From a virus, in the IMG/VR virus record IMGVR_UViG_3300006484_000033, positions 1 to 33,287 of that record: a DNA stretch of 33,287 nt. One strand, given 5' to 3'. The notes under the pieces are model-generated. The model had not been told where the DNA came from, ran no database searches, and saw only the letters and a program-made list of their open reading frames with translations. Of the stretch, positions 6,225-13,776 are shown piece by piece. Positions within the stretch are counted from its first letter, which is position 1, and every line of letters starts with the position of its first letter. A program made the translations under genes and the position numbers.

Positions 6225-7999
6225 TGATGAAAATTAAAAATATTACCGTAAAAAACTTCATGAGCGTGGGGAACGTCACACAAGCCGTGCAGTTTGACAA
6301 TGCTGGTCTTACCTTAGTTCTAGGAAACAATCTTGACTTAGGAGGTGATGGTTCACGTAATGGTACTGGAAAAACTACTATCATTAACGCACTGAGCTTT
6401 GCACTTTATGGCAATGCATTGTATAACATTAAAAAAGACAACTTGGTTAACAAAACAAACAACAAGCAAATGCTAGTGACTTGTGAGTTGCAAAAGGACG
6501 GTGTTAGCTATCGCATTGAACGTGGCCGGAGACCTAACGTATTTAGATTCATTGTCAATGACATTGAAAGCAATGCTGAAAGCACTGATGAAATGCAGGG
6601 CGAAGGACGTTTAAGTCAAGAAGCTATTGAACGTATGCTAGGCATGAGCCATACGATGTTTAAGCATATTCTAGCACTAAACACTTATACTGATCCTTTT
6701 CTAAGTATGCGGGCTAACGAGCAGCGTGAACTTATCGAACAGTTACTTGGTATCACACAACTTAGTGAAAAGGCTGAAATCCTCAAAGAACTAGTGAAAG
6801 CAACTAAAGAGGCAGTTCAGGAAGAAACATACAAAATACGTGCTATTGAAGAAGCTAATACGCGCATCGGTACTACCATTAAAGATCTAGAACGCCGGCA
6901 ACGTGTCTGGCTCAACAATAAAGAAAAAGTAATTGTTGATTTGGGTGTTGAACTATTGGCATTAGAACATATTGATGTTGAAGCTGAATTAAACGCACAC
7001 GCCGAGTTTGACAAATGGTCATTTAAAAAGACACAGTTTGATACAATTACTAGCGAAATTGCTAAACTTACTACTGCTAAAGAGCGCGAAAGTAAACGCC
7101 TAGTTAAAGCTGAAGAAGATTTGGCTGCGGCGCTTGCACACAAATGTTATGCATGTGGACAGGATTTGCACGATGACGCACATGACAAAATCGTTGCAGT
7201 AAAAACAGACATTGTCGCAGAATCTAAAGGCATTGTTGCTGAAAGTGAAAGCCAATTGACTGAATTCAAAGAGGGCCTTGTGCTTATTGGCGAAGTCGGA
7301 CCTGCTCCAAGACTGCACTATAATACAGTACAAGCAGCATATGAACACCAAGGAAAACTAAGTAAAATTAAAACAGATATTGAACGCAAGGAAGCTGAAG
7401 ACGATCCGTATGATGAACAGATTGCAATTATGCGCGACACTGGCTTGCAAGCTGTCGACTGGGATGAAGTAAACCGGTATGCCGATTTGAAGGAACATCA
7501 AGAATTCCTTCTTAAATTGCTAACCAGTAAGGATAGCTTTATTCGTAAAAAGATTATTGAACAGAACTTGAGCTTTCTAAATAATCGTTTAGAATACTAC
7601 ATTACTAAACTTGGCTTGCCACATGAAGTACAATTCCAGAGCGACTTGAATGTAAGTATTACACAACTTGGACAGGACTTGGATTTTGATAATTTAAGCC
7701 GTGGTGAACGAAATCGATTGATACTAGGTCTTAGCTGGTCTTTCCGCGATGTGTTTGAGAGTATGAATTATCCTGTTAACTTGATGTGTATTGACGAACT
7801 AGTTGATAGCGGCCTTGATACAGTTGGAGTAGAAAATGCCATGTCTGTTTTGAAAAAGATGTGCAGGGACCGACAGAAAAGTATCTTGTTGATCTCACAC
7901 CGTGACGAACTAATAGGCAGAACCGATAATGTCTTGAACGTCACCAAAGAAAATGGATTTACTACATTTGACACTGAAATAGAAGTTACTTCTATGTAA
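6224..7999 (+). CDS. 46: gp46-like Rad50-type ATPase of the recombination nuclease
   Basis: 591 aa. It has the split ABC-ATPase layout of Rad50/SbcC: Walker A GSRNGTGKTT at residues 43-52, two helical arms with a zinc hook C308-Y-A-C311 in the middle, the ABC signature LSRGE at 491-495, Walker B LMCIDE at 520-525, and an H-loop (LLISHRDE) near 555. The coiled-coil arms are short, as in T4 gp46 (560 aa). It powers end resection with gp47. The first ATG overlaps the gp47 stop, and a second ATG follows directly (6227). Confidence 0.94.
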   Translation: MMKIKNITVKNFMSVGNVTQAVQFDNAGLTLVLGNNLDLGGDGSRNGTGKTTIINALSFALYGNALYNIKKDNLVNKTNNKQMLVTCELQKDGVSYRIERGRRPNVFRFIVNDIESNAESTDEMQGEGRLSQEAIERMLGMSHTMFKHILALNTYTDPFLSMRANEQRELIEQLLGITQLSEKAEILKELVKATKEAVQEETYKIRAIEEANTRIGTTIKDLERRQRVWLNNKEKVIVDLGVELLALEHIDVEAELNAHAEFDKWSFKKTQFDTITSEIAKLTTAKERESKRLVKAEEDLAAALAHKCYACGQDLHDDAHDKIVAVKTDIVAESKGIVAESESQLTEFKEGLVLIGEVGPAPRLHYNTVQAAYEHQGKLSKIKTDIERKEAEDDPYDEQIAIMRDTGLQAVDWDEVNRYADLKEHQEFLLKLLTSKDSFIRKKIIEQNLSFLNNRLEYYITKLGLPHEVQFQSDLNVSITQLGQDLDFDNLSRGERNRLILGLSWSFRDVFESMNYPVNLMCIDELVDSGLDTVGVENAMSVLKKMCRDRQKSILLISHRDELIGRTDNVLNVTKENGFTTFDTEIEVTSM

Positions 8000-8009
8000 A
8001 CAACAACGG

Positions 8010-8017
8010 TATAAATA
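8010..8017 (+). promoter_or_regulatory. late promoter, TATAAATA
   Basis: An exact match to the T4 late consensus TATAAATA, ending 4 nt before the next ATG (8022). The expected start of transcription falls on or just after that ATG, so the mRNA would be leaderless or the translated start lies further on. Confidence 0.55.
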
Positions 8018-8021
8018 TAAG

Positions 8022-8318
8022 ATGCAAAAGGGCGTCGACAAATACATTTACGAGTCGCCTGACCGCGGTAACAATATAACCCGGCGTCCTTTTGGTTCTC
8101 AAGAAAAAGAAATTATTTCTGATATTGACATTGACGTCAATCATGCTATACTGATTAATAGTATGTCGTCAATAGATGGTACGATGCCTTCAGTCAGACT
8201 TAACAATAAAGAGTTATGGGACATTCCTGTGGACTTGTACTCAACAAAGGTTAAAACCATGTTGTCTGAAGATATTCTTCAACAACTTGAAAAAATGATT
8301 AATGGCAGCAAAGAGTAA
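8022..8318 (+). CDS. small hypothetical protein
   Basis: 98 aa, not recognised. It is a soluble, charged protein with an acidic centre (DIDIDVNHA), no membrane segment and no cysteine. The C-terminal part (LWDIPVDLYSTKVKTMLSED) looks helical. It follows gp46 after 22 bp, behind a perfect late-promoter match that overlaps its own start region, and its last 17 bp overlap the nuclease gene in another frame. If the mRNA begins at the late promoter, this ATG would have no leader. The alternative is that it is expressed only by read-through from gp46, or starts at Met48 (8163). Confidence 0.6.
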   Translation: MQKGVDKYIYESPDRGNNITRRPFGSQEKEIISDIDIDVNHAILINSMSSIDGTMPSVRLNNKELWDIPVDLYSTKVKTMLSEDILQQLEKMINGSKE

Positions 8319-8835
8319 AAATAAAGGCAAAGGATTTGAACGTGAAGTATGTAAAATCCTAGGCAATGTATACGGCGATAATTTTGAACGTGTTCCACAT
8401 AGTGGCGCGTTTGTCGGTGGCATTAATGCTGCACGTAAGAGTACACTTACGGAAAATCAAATCAAGGCATTTAAAGGTGATATCATTCCGCCCGATGATT
8501 GGAGATACTTCAATTGTGAGTGCAAAAATTATAAAGATTTCCCTTTCCATCATCTACTACAAAACAAAACCATTCCGTTACTTGAAACTTGGTTCCAACA
8601 AACACTAGATGCACATGACGATAAAGATATTGATCTACTTTTTATGAAGTTTGATCGCAAAGGCATTTATTTGGCATTTCCAAAAAGACACAAACCAAAA
8701 TTCTTTTTAGACCGGCACATTACGTATCAAAGCAAAGATTACGGTCTCTGGACTATTACATTCTGGGAAGACTTCAAGGCTACAAAACTTAATACTGATG
8801 CTATACAAACAATGGCTATCAAAGGCACAGATTAA
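8302..8835 (+). CDS. PD-(D/E)XK-type nuclease (putative resolvase-like)
   Basis: 177 aa. The pattern fits the PD-(D/E)XK nuclease fold: GKGFEREVCKILG (E13/E15) in the first helix, then F-K-G-D60 and C-E73-C-K75 on the central strands, giving the D...ExK metal site. RVPHSGAF between them is like the loop of archaeal-type Holliday-junction resolvases and related nucleases. The role (junction resolution, DNA processing or restriction) is not settled by sequence, but the location just after gp46/47 favours recombination or repair. The ATG lies inside the end of the preceding gene with no clear ribosome site, so translation is likely coupled to it. Confidence 0.68.
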   Translation: MAAKSKNKGKGFEREVCKILGNVYGDNFERVPHSGAFVGGINAARKSTLTENQIKAFKGDIIPPDDWRYFNCECKNYKDFPFHHLLQNKTIPLLETWFQQTLDAHDDKDIDLLFMKFDRKGIYLAFPKRHKPKFFLDRHITYQSKDYGLWTITFWEDFKATKLNTDAIQTMAIKGTD

Positions 8836-8846
8836 TACTAACATCT

Positions 8847-8914
8847 ACTAATACAATTCCCAACACAAAACTAATACAATACTAATACAATACCCCGCAC
8901 AATACTAATAAAAT
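8847..8914. repeat. ACTAATACAAT direct repeats
   Basis: Three exact copies of ACTAATACAAT at 8847-8857, 8870-8880 and 8881-8891, and a one-mismatch copy (ACTAATAAAAT) at 8904-8914. They begin 12 bp after the nuclease stop. The 9-mer AAAGGCACA brackets the block at 8821-8829 and 8921-8929. The layout is like iterons or protein-binding sites. The function is unknown. Confidence 0.6.
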
Positions 8915-8940
8915 ACTATTAAAGGCACATACAAACTAGA

Positions 8941-9312
8941 CTTAAGGTTGGCACGCCAGTAATCAGTGCCGCGAATCCGTTCCTGAACGAGACGGTATGC
9001 AAACGGTTTATCTAGTTAACCGCTTCAACAGACTATCCCTGGTGACGTCAGGGACGCCTTAAGCACACTGCTTCTGTTGTCGTAATGGTAATAAAAGATC
9101 AAGCTCTATTGACAATAATATCTTGAGGGTAACCGGAAAAAGCTGATACCATGGCATCCGGTGTTCCTGCGCTGATTAGACGCATCGTAATAGGAGGTAC
9201 AGTTCAACCGCCTCCCCCTGTTGTAAGGTTATGTTATGGTATTGTGGATGTGGGGCGACTGGAAAGTTGTTTTATTTTTTTCACACTGTGGCCTGAATCA
9301 GGCTTAGTGTGA
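8941..9312 (+). ncRNA. candidate large structured noncoding RNA
   Basis: This is the GC-rich core of the only long gene-free region. Pairings visible by eye, in order: GGCAC 8950-8954 with GTGCC 8966-8970; CCGT 8977-8980 with ACGG 8992-8995; CGGTT 9004-9008 with AACCG 9018-9022; TCCCTG 9036-9041 with CAGGGA 9049-9054. All are enclosed by CTTAAGG 8941-8947 and CCTTAAG 9057-9063. Further stems are ACCGGA 9132-9137/TCCGGT 9157-9162, TGCG 9168-9171/CGCA 9181-9184, GGAGG 9193-9197/CCTCC 9211-9215, and TCACACT 9281-9287/AGTGTGA 9306-9312 with an inner GCCTG/CAGGC. CAACAG 9026-9031 could pair with CTGTTG 9074-9079 across the closing stem, as a pseudoknot. There is no coding frame of note on either strand. 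The strand is assumed from the flanking genes. It could be a phage regulatory RNA of the large ornate kind (GOLLD/ROOL-like). No known family was recognised. Confidence 0.45.
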
Positions 9313-9529
9313 TTGAAAAAGCTCATGGAAAACATAATAGTTATAGAAATAATAATTCAGTATTAGATATTATATATTATCGATATTAACAATAAATTAA
9401 TGTAACAACAAAGTAATTGAAGATTACTGAAGTTGCAATTGCTCGAAGAGCAATTAGAAGGTTAATAAATATTATTAATAATAACATTACCTTTTGGTGA
9501 CAGTTATGACTTCATGAAAGATTAATCCA
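9313..9529. other. AT-rich gene-free segment with two perfect hairpins
   Basis: AT-rich DNA after the structured block. It contains AGTAAT 9412-9417/ATTACT 9423-9428 (loop TGAAG) and AATTGCTC 9437-9444/GAGCAATT 9448-9455 (loop GAA), then a late-promoter-like AATAAATA at 9464-9471. The AT-rich stretch 9355-9400 could also serve as an unwinding element if the region were an origin. Nothing proves that. Confidence 0.45.
9464..9471 (+). promoter_or_regulatory. late promoter, AATAAATA
   Basis: AATAAATAT, 58 bp before the ATG at 9530, with no other signal in between. It matches the late-promoter form seen elsewhere in the window, but the surrounding DNA is so AT-rich that chance is a real possibility. 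Confidence 0.4.
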
Positions 9530-9985
9530 ATGACATTCCAAGAATTCTGTCAGGCCTTTATATTATGGTCTGAATCAATTATTGAAGAGAAAAAAATCGA
9601 TGGCTTCCCAGTGTGTCCATATGCCAAACATGCAAGGTTGACCAATGCAGTACAGTTTATCGATGCCCGAGTAGATATACAAGCACTGCGTGAGTTTGAT
9701 AAAACAAAATATGAAATAGGTATTGCTTGGATAGGTGATAATGATATACAATTAAAATCTGCAGAAAAATATGCAGATTATTTGGTGAATCTAGATCCAG
9801 AGTTACTATATTTTACAAGTACACCAGATAGCGGGTTCTTTGCAAAGAATTTCACCAATTGCGTTTTTATTCAGCTTAAAGCTGATATTTTAGAAAGAAG
9901 AAGCCAGCTACATAATACAACGTATTACGATAGCTGGCCAGCTGAGTATTATAAAGCTATTACTGGTCATGATAAACTATCATGA
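9530..9985 (+). CDS. hypothetical protein with CPYA motif
   Basis: 151 aa, not recognised. Near the N-terminus, after an amphipathic helix (TFQEFCQAFILWSESIIEE), is the motif GFPVCPYAKHARL. A Cys-Pro-Tyr/Phe-Ala motif in this position recalls redox or metal-binding small proteins, but no second metal ligand pattern is obvious. There is no signal peptide. There is no good ribosome site before the ATG. The gene ends inside the stop region of the convergent chaperone extension: the two stop codons overlap by 6 bp (9980-9985), with no terminator between them. Confidence 0.62.
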   Translation: MTFQEFCQAFILWSESIIEEKKIDGFPVCPYAKHARLTNAVQFIDARVDIQALREFDKTKYEIGIAWIGDNDIQLKSAEKYADYLVNLDPELLYFTSTPDSGFFAKNFTNCVFIQLKADILERRSQLHNTTYYDSWPAEYYKAITGHDKLS

Positions 9986-10189
9986 GCTGCGTGATTTTTG
10001 TATAGCTGCGTTTTTAGCTTCATTTCGTTTATTAATTGATTCAATTAGTAATTGGATTGCAGGGACTGGCATAGTCATTACATCCTGATAACTTACTGCG
10101 CCCCCACTATGTAGTATTAGATCTGTGTATGATGTCTCAGTAGCAACAAGATCTTTATTGTAGCGCTCTATTATTTTTTCAATACCCAC
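9980..10189 (-). CDS. frameshift extension of gp26-like chaperone (GT-like tail)
   Basis: 69 codons from a GTG at 10189, with no ribosome binding site in front of it. The frame is open upstream without a stop back through CCG CAG AGT ACT GCC to the slippery site in the gp26-like gene at 10225-10219. It is in the -1 frame relative to that gene. It is therefore best read as the T part of a G/GT pair: a -1 shift would yield a 353-residue product (274 codons of the gp26-like frame plus 79). The tail is helical and charged (IEKIIERYNKDLVATETSY ... LLIESINKRNEAKNAAIQ). Independent initiation at the GTG is the alternative. Confidence 0.66.
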   Translation of the reverse strand: MGIEKIIERYNKDLVATETSYTDLILHSGGAVSYQDVMTMPVPAIQLLIESINKRNEAKNAAIQKSRSS

Positions 10190-10190
10190 C

Positions 10191-10225
10191 GGCTGACTAG
10201 TGGCGATCAGCCTACGAAAAAATTT
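10191..10225 (-). promoter_or_regulatory. programmed -1 ribosomal frameshift signal
   Basis: Minus strand. The heptamer A AAT TTT at 10225-10219 is aligned with the zero frame as X XXY YYZ (Asn273-Phe274 of the gp26-like protein) and lies in a run of six T. After a 6-nt spacer (TTCGTA) comes a perfect 6-bp stem GGCTGA (10212-10207)/TCAGCC (10196-10191) with a 10-nt loop. The zero-frame TGA is part of the stem. In the -1 frame no stop occurs before the downstream 69-codon frame, which continues to 9980. All three parts (slippery site, spacer and stem) fall within the ranges typical of bacterial -1 frameshifting. Confidence 0.72.
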
Positions 10226-11040
10226 GCAATATCTAAATCAACATCAGTTGACCAATTGTGGCCGCATGTCTGGCATGTTGCTTTGAAGTTAGTGTCAATT
10301 GCTGGCTTTGATAATTGCTCCACCAAGTCTTTGATCATTTCATAGTCAACTTTTGTGATTGTTTGCAGCCATTCGTCAATTGTTTCTGCGTCAGTCACAA
10401 TTTCTCCAGATTCTGCAAGCGTAACTGATGTAATAGAATTTGCTACAAGTTTAATTGTTAGTTCTGCTAATTCTACAAACGTGCGTCCAAAAATATCGCC
10501 GCGTTGATCTTCATCAATTTCTGTTGAAATTAAACTTTCAATCATTTTCTTTTGTTTTATTTGTTGAATTTGCAAGAGTGTTCTATCTTTTAAATTATAT
10601 GGTTTAAGACCTATTTTAAATTCATTTTTAAGAACAATACAATCATCTATTTTAATCTGCTTTGCAGATGCCAACACACGGTTAGCATCAACTGCTAGCA
10701 TGTTTAGTTCACTGCATGATGGACATTTTACATCAACGTTCAAATCTTTACCATATGTTGCTTGTCTAATAGCAAGCAAAATAACAAGTAAATCATTAAC
10801 TGGTACAGTGTCGGGATTCGCAATATCTGGACAACAGCTACGAATAATAGCACTCGTAGCTTCACCGTTAAACAATGCATCTGGCGTCTTTGTAATCAAT
10901 TCATCTCTGGCAGTCATAGCATATACTGCTAAATCACCATCTACACTTAATTTTGGTTTTATATCGTAGTACTTTCCACCACTTGGTAAAGTAACGTATA
11001 GCGAAGGCTTTCTATAAGCCTGTATCAATAAGTTTGACAT
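10207..11040 (-). CDS. 26: gp26-like baseplate hub/tail assembly chaperone
   Basis: 277 aa from the ATG at 11040, preceded by GGAG 9 nt upstream. A TTG five codons earlier is possible but less likely. The N-terminus follows the T4-like gp26 pattern: KPSLYVTLPSGGKYY, MTARDEL, and then LLAIRQATYGKDLNVDVKCP. Two CxxC pairs, C106-x-x-C109 and C256-x-x-C259, suggest a zinc knuckle formed between the two ends. In T4 gp26 is needed for hub assembly. In other long-tailed phages the proteins at this place act as tape-measure chaperones made in two forms by frameshifting, and a frameshift signal is present at this gene's end. It is transcribed divergently from the tape-measure-like genes, from a late promoter at 11086-11093. 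Confidence 0.8.
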   Translation of the reverse strand: MSNLLIQAYRKPSLYVTLPSGGKYYDIKPKLSVDGDLAVYAMTARDELITKTPDALFNGEATSAIIRSCCPDIANPDTVPVNDLLVILLAIRQATYGKDLNVDVKCPSCSELNMLAVDANRVLASAKQIKIDDCIVLKNEFKIGLKPYNLKDRTLLQIQQIKQKKMIESLISTEIDEDQRGDIFGRTFVELAELTIKLVANSITSVTLAESGEIVTDAETIDEWLQTITKVDYEMIKDLVEQLSKPAIDTNFKATCQTCGHNWSTDVDLDIANFFVG

Positions 11041-11115: not shown

Positions 11116-13776
11116 GTGAACATTGAACGAGAACTAAAACGTATACAAAGTCAACATAAGTGGGCCAGTGAGCAGACTCTATCTAGAGTTATGAATTTGC
11201 TCGGGGCTAACACTAAGCAAATAACAAAAGCTATTAATGATATTCAAATACAACAATATAACGAAAAAGACTTACTTAAAATAATTAACAGTCAAAAATC
11301 TAAAATTGCAAAATTTACTTCAACTTCCAAGAGTTTAAATGAAGTATTAAAAACTACAGTTTATGGACGTGACACAAATCCAATAACAGCTACTTCTGAA
11401 TTAGTTGAAATGGCCGCCGGCGCAATTGCTGATCATGGTTTATCAAGTAACGCAGCCGCTGATGGAATACAAACTGTTTTTTCTAAAATTGGCGGAGTTG
11501 CAACTGGGATAGCTGGTATCACTGCCAGCACTGCTGGAGTAATAGCAATTTATGGCCAAATATTCAGTGAACAGGAAAAGGTTTTACGTGCAGGCATTAA
11601 CATGGGTGTATCATTAAATACTTCCAAGTACACTGAAATGAATACTACGTTTGCAGGATTAGGAAGATCTATTAATGAAATTTTTTCTGAATATAGACGG
11701 CAAATGCCAATGTTTGCAAATTTACCAGGAACCGCAGGTGATAACTTAATCAAATTTGCAAATTTGACAACTGTTATAAAAAATGATAATTCTTTTCCTG
11801 ACTTTGGATATACTACTGGGCAGGTCATGCGAAGACTTGTGGATGAAGCAGAGATTATTAGACGTTACGGCGGGTTAGCTGATATGAATACCCAATCAGA
11901 AAAAATAGTTTATGACAGATTTATCAAGAGTTCCACCGCAGCTACCGTAATGGCTAATTTATTAGGCGTTAAACGAGATGACTTACTGTCCACTCGTCAA
12001 GAGGCAGCAAATGATTTAAACTTTACGATAACTGCAAGATATGCCCAATCTGATTTAATAGACCGATATGGCGCCACCGCATACGATAATGTAGTTGATT
12101 TTCAAACAAATGTATATACTGTGTTTAGTACCATTTTTGATGGGAAGTTTGCTAAAGAAACATCTAATCTGATGACCCGAGCTATAAACGATCAGAATTT
12201 TGATGATGTGATGGCAAACATGAGTCCAGAATTAAATCAAATTTTGAATTTTATGGGCGATAATGTTAAAGAACAATATGTAGCAATGATACAGTCAGCT
12301 GTCAAGGGAAATTTAAGCGGGGTTGATTCAGACTTAGCTATACAGGGATTTATACAATTAGTTGCGAAATCAACACCGTTAGAATCAATAGGAAACATAT
12401 CAGATCCTATAGTGCAGGAAGTTATGGAAATGCAAGCACAAGCACGCCTTGCACCTGAAAGTTATATAAATGCAACTAGATCATTACTTGAACAACATCG
12501 CAATAACGTTGCAGCATACACTGAATCAGCAGATGGTATTGTAGACGGTATGGATAGCATACGTAGAGCATTTTTACAGATATCAAGAATTGCATCCCCT
12601 GGTTTTGGTACCACTGGTGATATAGTTGATGGTTTTGGAGACACTCTACGTTGGCTAACTGATGTTATTGGAGAAGTTTTAGGCCCATTAGTTAACTTTG
12701 ATCCGGTAGTTGATGATGAAGGATCCGGTGTTATATCAGCCCCACCTCGCCCAAGTTGGTGGCAAAGTAATGGATATATTCATTCTAGTCCAAGACATCC
12801 GCAAAATGAATGGGACAGTCAATTTGGCGAATACTTTAGTGAAGATGGGACACTAATAGAAGGCGCAGATGTACAACTTGCTGCTCAGGCAGTTTCTGTA
12901 GGTCCAACTGGTGCTACGACTGCTGAGTTATCAGGAATATCAGCTGATCCAAGTTCAGGCGGAACACTTCAAAATGGACGACTTCCCGCAGGTGAATTGC
13001 AGTCAATCACTGGCGGCGGCAGATTGCGCGCCGGCGCTGCTGATGCGTTTAACAGAATGGCCTCCGCTGCTGCTGCTGACGGTGTTACTATAACACCAAG
13101 TTCGACATACCGAGATATAGAAAAACAACAACACTTATGGAATACATCAACTAGGCCATTATCAGAAAGAAGAAAATGGGTAGCATATCCAGGCGGTTCG
13201 AATCATGGATGGGGGCTTGCTTTTGATGAAGGTAATATATACCGACAGCATGAATCCGCTCCACAATATCAATGGTTACGTAATCATGGTATTGAGTATG
13301 GATTTTATCAGAGAATGGCACATGAGACTTGGCATTGGGAATACACTGGAGCCCCGGGTACATCAGATGTTACAACTGCTGACCCAGCATCACCATCAGT
13401 TGCAACTTTGCCAGTTGATACTGATCCAGTAAATAATGACGCCACTGCCGTTTCCTTGCCAGTAATACCATCGTTATCTACAGTAGATAATAATACATCT
13501 TTATTGCCAGTACCAGTAACACCATCGTTATTTGCTGTAGATAATGACGCCACTGCCGTTTCCTTACCAGTAATACCATCGTTACCTACTGTAGATAATA
13601 CTGAAGTTTCTGATGATACATCTTCTTTAATTGATACTTACAGTAATTCACAAGATGCATCTATTACTGCCTTACTTGAAGACGAATTACAATCCACATC
13701 ATTAATTGAACAAAGCTGGGCATCTATTGTGGAATTCTTTAATAATGAAGAAACAAATGAAAGGATTACACAATAA
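11116..13776 (+). CDS. tape-measure-like protein A with M15 (VanY-type) peptidase domain
   Basis: 886 codons from a GTG (ribosome site weak; no better start nearby). Residues about 1-500 are helical with a hydrophobic segment near 124-150 (GVATGIAGITASTAGVIAIY). They share blocks with the two following genes: GRDTNPI, SEQEKVLRAGINMGV, DFGYTTGQVMRRLVDEAE, LLGVKRDDLLSTRQEA. A Gly/Ser linker leads to a zinc DD/LD-peptidase domain of the M15B family at about 640-745: SSTYRDIEKQQHLWN, GGSNHGWGLAFDEG (ligands H697 and D704), and HETWHWEY (E737, ligand H740). It would cut stem peptides of peptidoglycan. A Pro/Val-rich tail with three 18-residue repeats follows. The stop overlaps the next ATG by one base. 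The role is inferred: tail protein that opens the cell wall during DNA entry. Confidence 0.8.
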   Translation: MNIERELKRIQSQHKWASEQTLSRVMNLLGANTKQITKAINDIQIQQYNEKDLLKIINSQKSKIAKFTSTSKSLNEVLKTTVYGRDTNPITATSELVEMAAGAIADHGLSSNAAADGIQTVFSKIGGVATGIAGITASTAGVIAIYGQIFSEQEKVLRAGINMGVSLNTSKYTEMNTTFAGLGRSINEIFSEYRRQMPMFANLPGTAGDNLIKFANLTTVIKNDNSFPDFGYTTGQVMRRLVDEAEIIRRYGGLADMNTQSEKIVYDRFIKSSTAATVMANLLGVKRDDLLSTRQEAANDLNFTITARYAQSDLIDRYGATAYDNVVDFQTNVYTVFSTIFDGKFAKETSNLMTRAINDQNFDDVMANMSPELNQILNFMGDNVKEQYVAMIQSAVKGNLSGVDSDLAIQGFIQLVAKSTPLESIGNISDPIVQEVMEMQAQARLAPESYINATRSLLEQHRNNVAAYTESADGIVDGMDSIRRAFLQISRIASPGFGTTGDIVDGFGDTLRWLTDVIGEVLGPLVNFDPVVDDEGSGVISAPPRPSWWQSNGYIHSSPRHPQNEWDSQFGEYFSEDGTLIEGADVQLAAQAVSVGPTGATTAELSGISADPSSGGTLQNGRLPAGELQSITGGGRLRAGAADAFNRMASAAAADGVTITPSSTYRDIEKQQHLWNTSTRPLSERRKWVAYPGGSNHGWGLAFDEGNIYRQHESAPQYQWLRNHGIEYGFYQRMAHETWHWEYTGAPGTSDVTTADPASPSVATLPVDTDPVNNDATAVSLPVIPSLSTVDNNTSLLPVPVTPSLFAVDNDATAVSLPVIPSLPTVDNTEVSDDTSSLIDTYSNSQDASITALLEDELQSTSLIEQSWASIVEFFNNEETNERITQ
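13438..13599. repeat. 54-bp in-frame tandem repeat, 3 units
   Basis: Units at 13438-13491, 13492-13545 and 13546-13599 encode 18-residue blocks of the form DATAVSLPVIPSLSTVDN. The first and third are nearly identical at DNA level, the middle one is diverged. It is the C-terminal linker of the M15-bearing protein, and its length is likely variable. Confidence 0.85.

Follow-up and report, generated by a model that had tools for sequence, protein, structure and literature searches.

We analyzed a 33,287-base IMG/VR virus record (IMGVR_UViG_3300006484_000033), the whole of which is referred to here as the window, from a T4-like myovirus. The gene order of the window runs from a gp25-like wedge gene and a gp55-like late sigma factor gene through gp47/gp46 (SbcD/SbcC-like) to a RusA-like resolvase gene, which is followed by a gene-free stretch. 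Past this stretch lie a gene encoding 151 aa, a gp26-like hub gene, tail genes, the portal gene and the prohead protease gene. The cultured phages with the closest portals, only 45-52% identical to that of the window, are T4-like jumbo phages, among them PA5oct, Phosso, Atu_ph07, GAP32, CBB and 121Q. There are no ORFs of 60 aa or more in 8836-9529, and the GC content is 0.43-0.45 at 8900-9300 compared to 0.24-0.35 on the flanks. TRF reported the TACTAATACAA tract upstream of the RNA as a repeat of period 11 with 6.5 copies at 8846-8918; a loose form of these A/C-rich repeats is kept in the window-like (type A) relatives described below. The features of the locus are listed in Table 1.

Table 1. 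Coordinates of the features at the RNA locus of the window.
Feature	Position	Strand	Basis or remark
RusA-like Holliday junction resolvase gene, upstream neighbor	8302-8835	+	PHROG 244, E 1e-19; neighbor conserved in relatives
A/C-rich TACTAATACAA-type repeat tract, resolvase-RNA interval	8836-8933	+	TRF; similar tracts in relatives
5' domain of the RNA	8934-9088	+	Pair counts on 10 relatives
5' domain helices	8950-8954/8966-8970; 8977-8980/8992-8995; 9004-9008/9018-9022; 9037-9041/9049-9053	+	
5' domain pseudoknots	8934-8939/9012-9017; 9026-9032/9073-9079 (CAACAG/CTGTTG)	+	
Closing helix TTAAGG/CCTTAA	8942-9062 (8942-8947 with 9057-9062)	+	74% of cells paired, no both-side changes
Conserved core	9092-9250	+	Covariation in 30 relatives; covariance model R1, 131 bits
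Core elements: hairpin A; stem G/C; stem D	9099-9126; 9128-9135 with 9159-9167; 9168-9184	+	
Core elements: hairpin E (loop ACAGnnCAACC); hairpin F	9193-9215; 9216-9229	+	
Pseudoknot B	9146-9242 (9146-9154 with 9234-9242)	+	9 bp; covariation in 30 relatives; same pseudoknot in type C
Direct-repeat copy 1 (TGGAAA 9260-9265), then T run 9270-9281	9260-9281	+	Concerted repeats
Hairpin H (CACACTGTGGCCTGAATCAGGCTTAGTGTG)	9282-9311	+	In relatives with changed sequence
Direct-repeat copy 2 (TGGAAA)	9326-9331	+	Concerted repeats
AT-rich stretch with small hairpins	9320-9529	.	GC 0.24 at 9300-9499
Downstream gene of unknown function, 151 aa	9530-9985	+	

The sequence-only reading had described 8941-9312 as a gene-free, GC-richer block of hairpins, and this held against both the ORF list and the GC profile. 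The stems it had listed are real: in the 5' domain, compared across the window and nine relatives, 92.9% of cells were paired and 17 of the 38 pairs had changes on both sides, with a covariation score of 0.421 compared to 0.182 when shuffled and at most 0.11 when slid. The CAACAG/CTGTTG pseudoknot it had proposed also held, pairing in all sequences with three pairs changed on both sides. The proposed closing pairing (CTTAAGG/CCTTAAG) held only in part, as reflected in its row of Table 1. The limits of the block had to be corrected; the RNA runs on through a better conserved core that contains another pseudoknot, and hairpin H lies past this core.

A folding energy no better than that of shuffled sequence had been named as grounds for refuting the structure. 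The folding energy of 8930-9320 was -112.8 kcal/mol compared to -106.6 +/- 5.1 for shuffled sequence (z -1.22, 12 of 100), with pseudoknots lying outside the energy model. The shuffles were not beaten, and folding energy alone is no evidence for structure here. An energy criterion would have missed this RNA because its single-sequence folding energy is no better than that of shuffles. The check on covariation in relatives, also proposed in that reading, did find compensatory changes and supported a structured RNA.

We used the resolvase as bait and obtained 59 IMG/VR loci, in which the stretch downstream of the resolvase was conserved in about 16 distinct sequences ranging from 83% identity to barely alignable. 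A loop-and-stem motif scan with GGTACMGYNYAACCGCCTC fetched 104 stretches, most of which share the neighbor order gp55, gp47, gp46, resolvase, RNA, gp26 hub and portal. The fetched stretches comprise type A, a second type (type B) and a few chance hits. The pattern matches at loci L079, L089, L091, L132 and L165 were judged to be chance, having the motif only and no syntenic genes.

The conserved core was evaluated in 30 type A sequences (set A2), where 92.2% of cells were paired compared to 74.0% when shuffled and 34-48% when slid. Changes on both sides were found in 235 cells, compared to 75.9 when shuffled, and affected 26 of the 38 named pairs, the 9-bp pseudoknot included; the covariation score was 0.560 compared to 0.218 when shuffled. 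Pseudoknot B was paired in 94% of cells, with both-side changes in 6 of its 9 pairs. The U-G pair that closes hairpin E was invariant (30/30), which fixes the plus strand as that of the RNA. The structures were drawn from the same sequences on which they were tested and the slid controls are thus somewhat favorable to them; the both-side changes and the separate type C set described below are stronger evidence than the slid controls. Taken with the relatives, 8934-9250 of the window is very probably a structured RNA on the plus strand, its transcription being inferred.

We built a covariance model (R1) from set A2. R1 found type B (for most members, E 8e-9 to 4e-5), and it located the RNA at the expected spot in L031, L034, L035 and L048 (E 1.7e-5 to 3e-8), loci that were fetched only via the resolvase. 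Nine long IMG/VR records (96-316 kb) contained exactly one R1 copy each. Nothing significant was found with R1 in T4, S-PM2 or HTVC008M (E 0.2 or worse). An R1 match far from the portal region was observed in Atu_ph07 (L211; NC_042013, 490087-490271, minus strand; E 1.4e-4).

A blastn comparison of the type A and type B RNAs with cultured phages gave no useful match; the link to cultured isolates came via portal synteny. In the jumbo phages 121Q, GAP32, CBB, XaC1 and XbC2, gp46/endonuclease VII and the hub gene are separated by a gene-free gap of about 770-840 nt, and this slot holds a more distant form of the RNA (type C) with the same pseudoknot layout. The gaps of 121Q and GAP32 have 82% mean column identity across the RNA. 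With the 121Q RNA as blastn query we recovered 41 phage records, most of them with four or five places each, from phages of Escherichia, Salmonella, Klebsiella, Erwinia, Serratia, Xanthomonas, Pectobacterium and Cronobacter. Whole-record searches placed four copies in 121Q (at about 90, 193, 247 and 327 kb) and five each in GAP32, CBB, XaC1 and XbC2 (about 5 by blastn for the latter two), all on one strand. A second covariance model (R2), built from type C, confirmed 4, 5 and 5 copies in 121Q, GAP32 and CBB. The type C paralogues adjoin different genes and lie in gene-free gaps. Their covariation score was 0.545 compared to 0.218 when shuffled, and a pseudoknot of at least 6 pairs was present at the same two places in 24 of 24 copies with mostly different sequences (permutation, 0 of 5000).

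R2 matched the type B loci L074 and L097 at the right place, albeit weakly (E 0.37 and 1.0), and did not find the type A element of the window. Besides the score, types B and C are alike in layout, in a common CCGUUG stretch, in the E loop and in genomic slot. Types A, B and C likely constitute one family with the same pseudoknotted core in the same slot, the link from B to C being statistically weak. We do not claim homology for PA5oct and Phosso, which have a gene-poor gap in the slot but no RNA found by R1 or R2. In PA5oct (L170) the gene-poor gap at 9797-10800 has a perfect TTGACA-17-TATAAT, a terminator-like hairpin with a T run and then a strong hairpin; in Phosso (L171) the gap lies at 7760-8773 and the next gene is RNase HI. 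No RNA was found in SCTP-2 or Vibrio 2.275.

Searches with 4,227 Rfam models gave no gathering-level match in the window and none up to E 5 in 8830-9540. The element was likewise unmatched by Rfam in 22 related loci and five jumbo-phage loci, and the best Rfam matches to a 121Q copy were at chance level (E 0.46 or worse). The GOLLD and ROOL covariance models had no match in the window, the relatives or the jumbo-phage loci. ARAGORN found no tRNA or tmRNA in the window and no tRNA in 50 of 51 related loci, the exception being a tRNA-Pyl-like call in L074. A tmRNA or tRNA-like RNA was rejected on the ARAGORN and Rfam results, and a group I or group II intron was rejected on the absence of an Rfam intron match and the position of the element between genes. 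The L074 call (13432-13505) lies close to the capsid genes of this 166-kb type B phage, as does a freshwater-2 RNA (RF02980) at 13570-13650. The sequence-only reading had left two possibilities, a known large ornate phage RNA or an undescribed one. No family matched among the 4,227 Rfam models and the covariation is present, therefore the undescribed alternative is supported, with transcription inferred. We found no earlier description of the RNA in the open-access literature searched; subscription papers and most preprints were outside our reach.

We further analyzed the signals around the RNA. A TATAAT occurs within the first 140 bases of 21 of the 24 type C copies, and several of these copies have TGAAAC or TGAAACG at the -35 position. 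The CBB genome paper described a TGAAACG promoter class, also found in GAP32, that precedes many DNA-synthesis genes (PMC5259590). In eight type C loci (L189, L192, L199, L200, L201, L202, L205 and L207) a hairpin, often with a T run, lies right after the -10 box or at the 5' end of the RNA; it could be a protective hairpin or an attenuator. The window has no promoter above chance by consensus, and a terminator scan found none at its thresholds. The type A RNA might be transcribed by read-through from the upstream operon, and the T run after the first direct repeat might be its 3' end, although no terminator was called there.

The core is followed by a short direct repeat (5-9 bases), in many cases by a T run, then by hairpin H and finally by the repeat again. 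Within one phage or paralogue both copies of the repeat match, but from phage to phage they vary (mean longest match 6.64 compared to 5.19 when swapped). In type C the pairs are CGTCAA/CGTCAA or CGTCAG/CGTCAG, and 24 of 24 are concordant by eye. We found no third strand inside the RNA complementary to these concerted repeats, and placement of both repeats in hairpin loops was not above control (mean stem score 10.4 and 8.4 compared to 9.5). The GC content after the core is 0.24-0.29 in type A and 0.33-0.36 in type B, and the drop is weak in type C. At 9404-9465 of the window, and similarly in L002, L013, L074, L161 and L173, there are small paired hairpins with GA steps whose layout is kept as the sequence changes (for example TTGATGAGCGCAAGCGAATCAA in type B). 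The copies in GAP32, CBB and XbC2 are evenly spaced (minimum-gap p 0.002-0.005); they are orthologous and so count as one observation. No GC-skew switch was found at three GAP32 copies, which is weak evidence in T4-like phages.

What the results establish is a pseudoknotted RNA fold that is strand-specific and conserved, as is the locus that holds it. By covariation, model searches and synteny, this RNA follows gp47-gp46-resolvase/endonuclease VII, precedes the gp26-like hub gene and has several copies in the jumbo members. We are highly confident that the element is a plus-strand gene, about 320-350 nt long, for a structured noncoding RNA, and that its family is an undescribed one of the T4-like lineage to which the Rak2/121Q/GAP32 jumbo phages belong; transcription is inferred, there being no expression data, and function is inferred as well. 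By analogy with the ColE1 RNAII primer or the T4 oriF/oriG transcripts, we tentatively propose a replication-associated RNA (primer/R-loop), a reading that we would not yet call probable. The RNA would be made from early or middle promoters at dispersed loci and would fold into the conserved pseudoknotted structure. Beyond its own 3' end, at the hairpin/AT-rich region, it may then base-pair with the template and prime phage DNA synthesis, the two identical repeats, one in the RNA and one past hairpin H, providing the putative annealing register. What favors this reading is the promoter class, the dispersal and even spacing of the copies, the AT-rich flank and the concerted repeats; we hold it only tentatively because there is no GC-skew switch at three copies. 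The weak AT-rich flank in type C speaks against a primer mechanism, and deep conservation of the paralogues would also fit a trans-acting RNA. A bolder form of the proposal, for which our confidence likewise stays below the balance point, is that these are a new family of folded replication-initiator RNAs and that jumbo T4-like phages start DNA synthesis at several scattered sites in the genome; the pseudoknotted primer RNA encoded at each of them would re-anneal to the matching repeat just past the hairpin at AT-rich DNA.

The closest competitor is a trans-acting ornate RNA like GOLLD or ROOL, which would fold, perhaps oligomerize or bind proteins, and act as an RNA particle or scaffold in infection. 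GOLLD and ROOL form RNA cages (PMC12286853), and the present RNA is a similar object, being several hundred nt in length with several pseudoknots, phage-borne and of unknown function; its strong structural conservation and its paralogues also fit. Against this are the lack of any sequence or structure match to the GOLLD or ROOL models, the absence of a nearby tRNA gene in the 51 related loci (bar the L074 call) and the dispersal of the copies in jumbo phages. We rank this scaffold reading only slightly behind the replication-associated RNA, and it too remains more doubtful than not.

The other explanations are weaker. An RNA that regulates host or phage gene expression, for instance by binding RNA polymerase (6S-like), ribosomes or mRNAs, would agree with the sigma-70-like promoters ahead of most jumbo-phage copies in gene-free gaps, but it is unlikely given that there is no similarity to 6S or other Rfam regulators and that the fold is far larger than is usual for base-pairing RNAs. 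The element might instead act in cis on the gp47-gp46-resolvase mRNA or on the downstream gene (riboswitch-like or in 3' UTR processing) without being an RNA gene, and the type A RNA does lie on the strand of the upstream operon with no promoter of its own recognized. However, the endonuclease VII gene upstream in the jumbo phages is on the opposite strand, a TATAAT precedes most jumbo copies, and the four or five copies adjoin unrelated genes, leaving a cis-acting element very improbable. That the hairpins matter only as DNA, or are a chance pattern, finds support in the failure of the window's folding energy alone to fall below shuffles; the conserved one-strand G-U pairs, together with covariation and the pseudoknot in three sequence types, all but rule this out.

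An unannotated RNA gene thus keeps an elaborate fold and its position through extreme divergence, in phages whose portal proteins are about 50% identical, and therefore points to an important role during the phage cycle, one that is missed by current annotation. Cultured members include phages of E. coli, Salmonella and Klebsiella, and the 121Q relatives Sharanji and slurp01 grow on E. coli K-12 MG1655. Because cultured members exist, transcription, structure and deletion phenotype are directly testable. Should the RNA prime replication, phages would have a further, new means of initiating DNA synthesis; should it be a scaffold RNA, GOLLD and ROOL would be joined by a third phage class.

Among known systems, ColE1 RNAII is offered as an analogy only, being a folded transcript of several hundred nt that ends near AT-rich, origin-like DNA. 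Statements on ColE1 RNAII beyond the cited review are general background. We claim no homology with it, the genetic context differs, and priming by the new RNA is inferred without evidence. T4 oriF/oriG, made up of a middle-mode promoter and an unwinding element (PMC4412123), resemble the new locus in that a T4-like phage has a promoter of middle type (not recognized in the window) ahead of AT-rich DNA (weakly so in type C), with several loci per genome in the jumbo members; they differ in that R1 finds nothing in T4 and that no GC-skew switch accompanies the new RNA. The oriF/oriG transcripts are not known to need a conserved pseudoknotted fold. GOLLD, too, is a large noncoding RNA that phages encode, has several pseudoknots and an unknown function, and is more conserved in its 3' part than in its 5' part; the new RNA shares this trait, its core being retained across types whose 5' domains differ. 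Unlike GOLLD, it has no covariance-model match, lies away from tRNA islands, is shorter (about 320-350 nt in the window), has its own conserved position and is multi-copy in jumbo phages. ROOL is also a phage-encoded ornate RNA with several pseudoknots, from which the new RNA differs in lacking a model match and a tRNA-island association and in having different helices. By the tests available the RNA is likely a member of neither GOLLD nor ROOL, and likely represents a new class among the large structured phage RNAs of unknown function.
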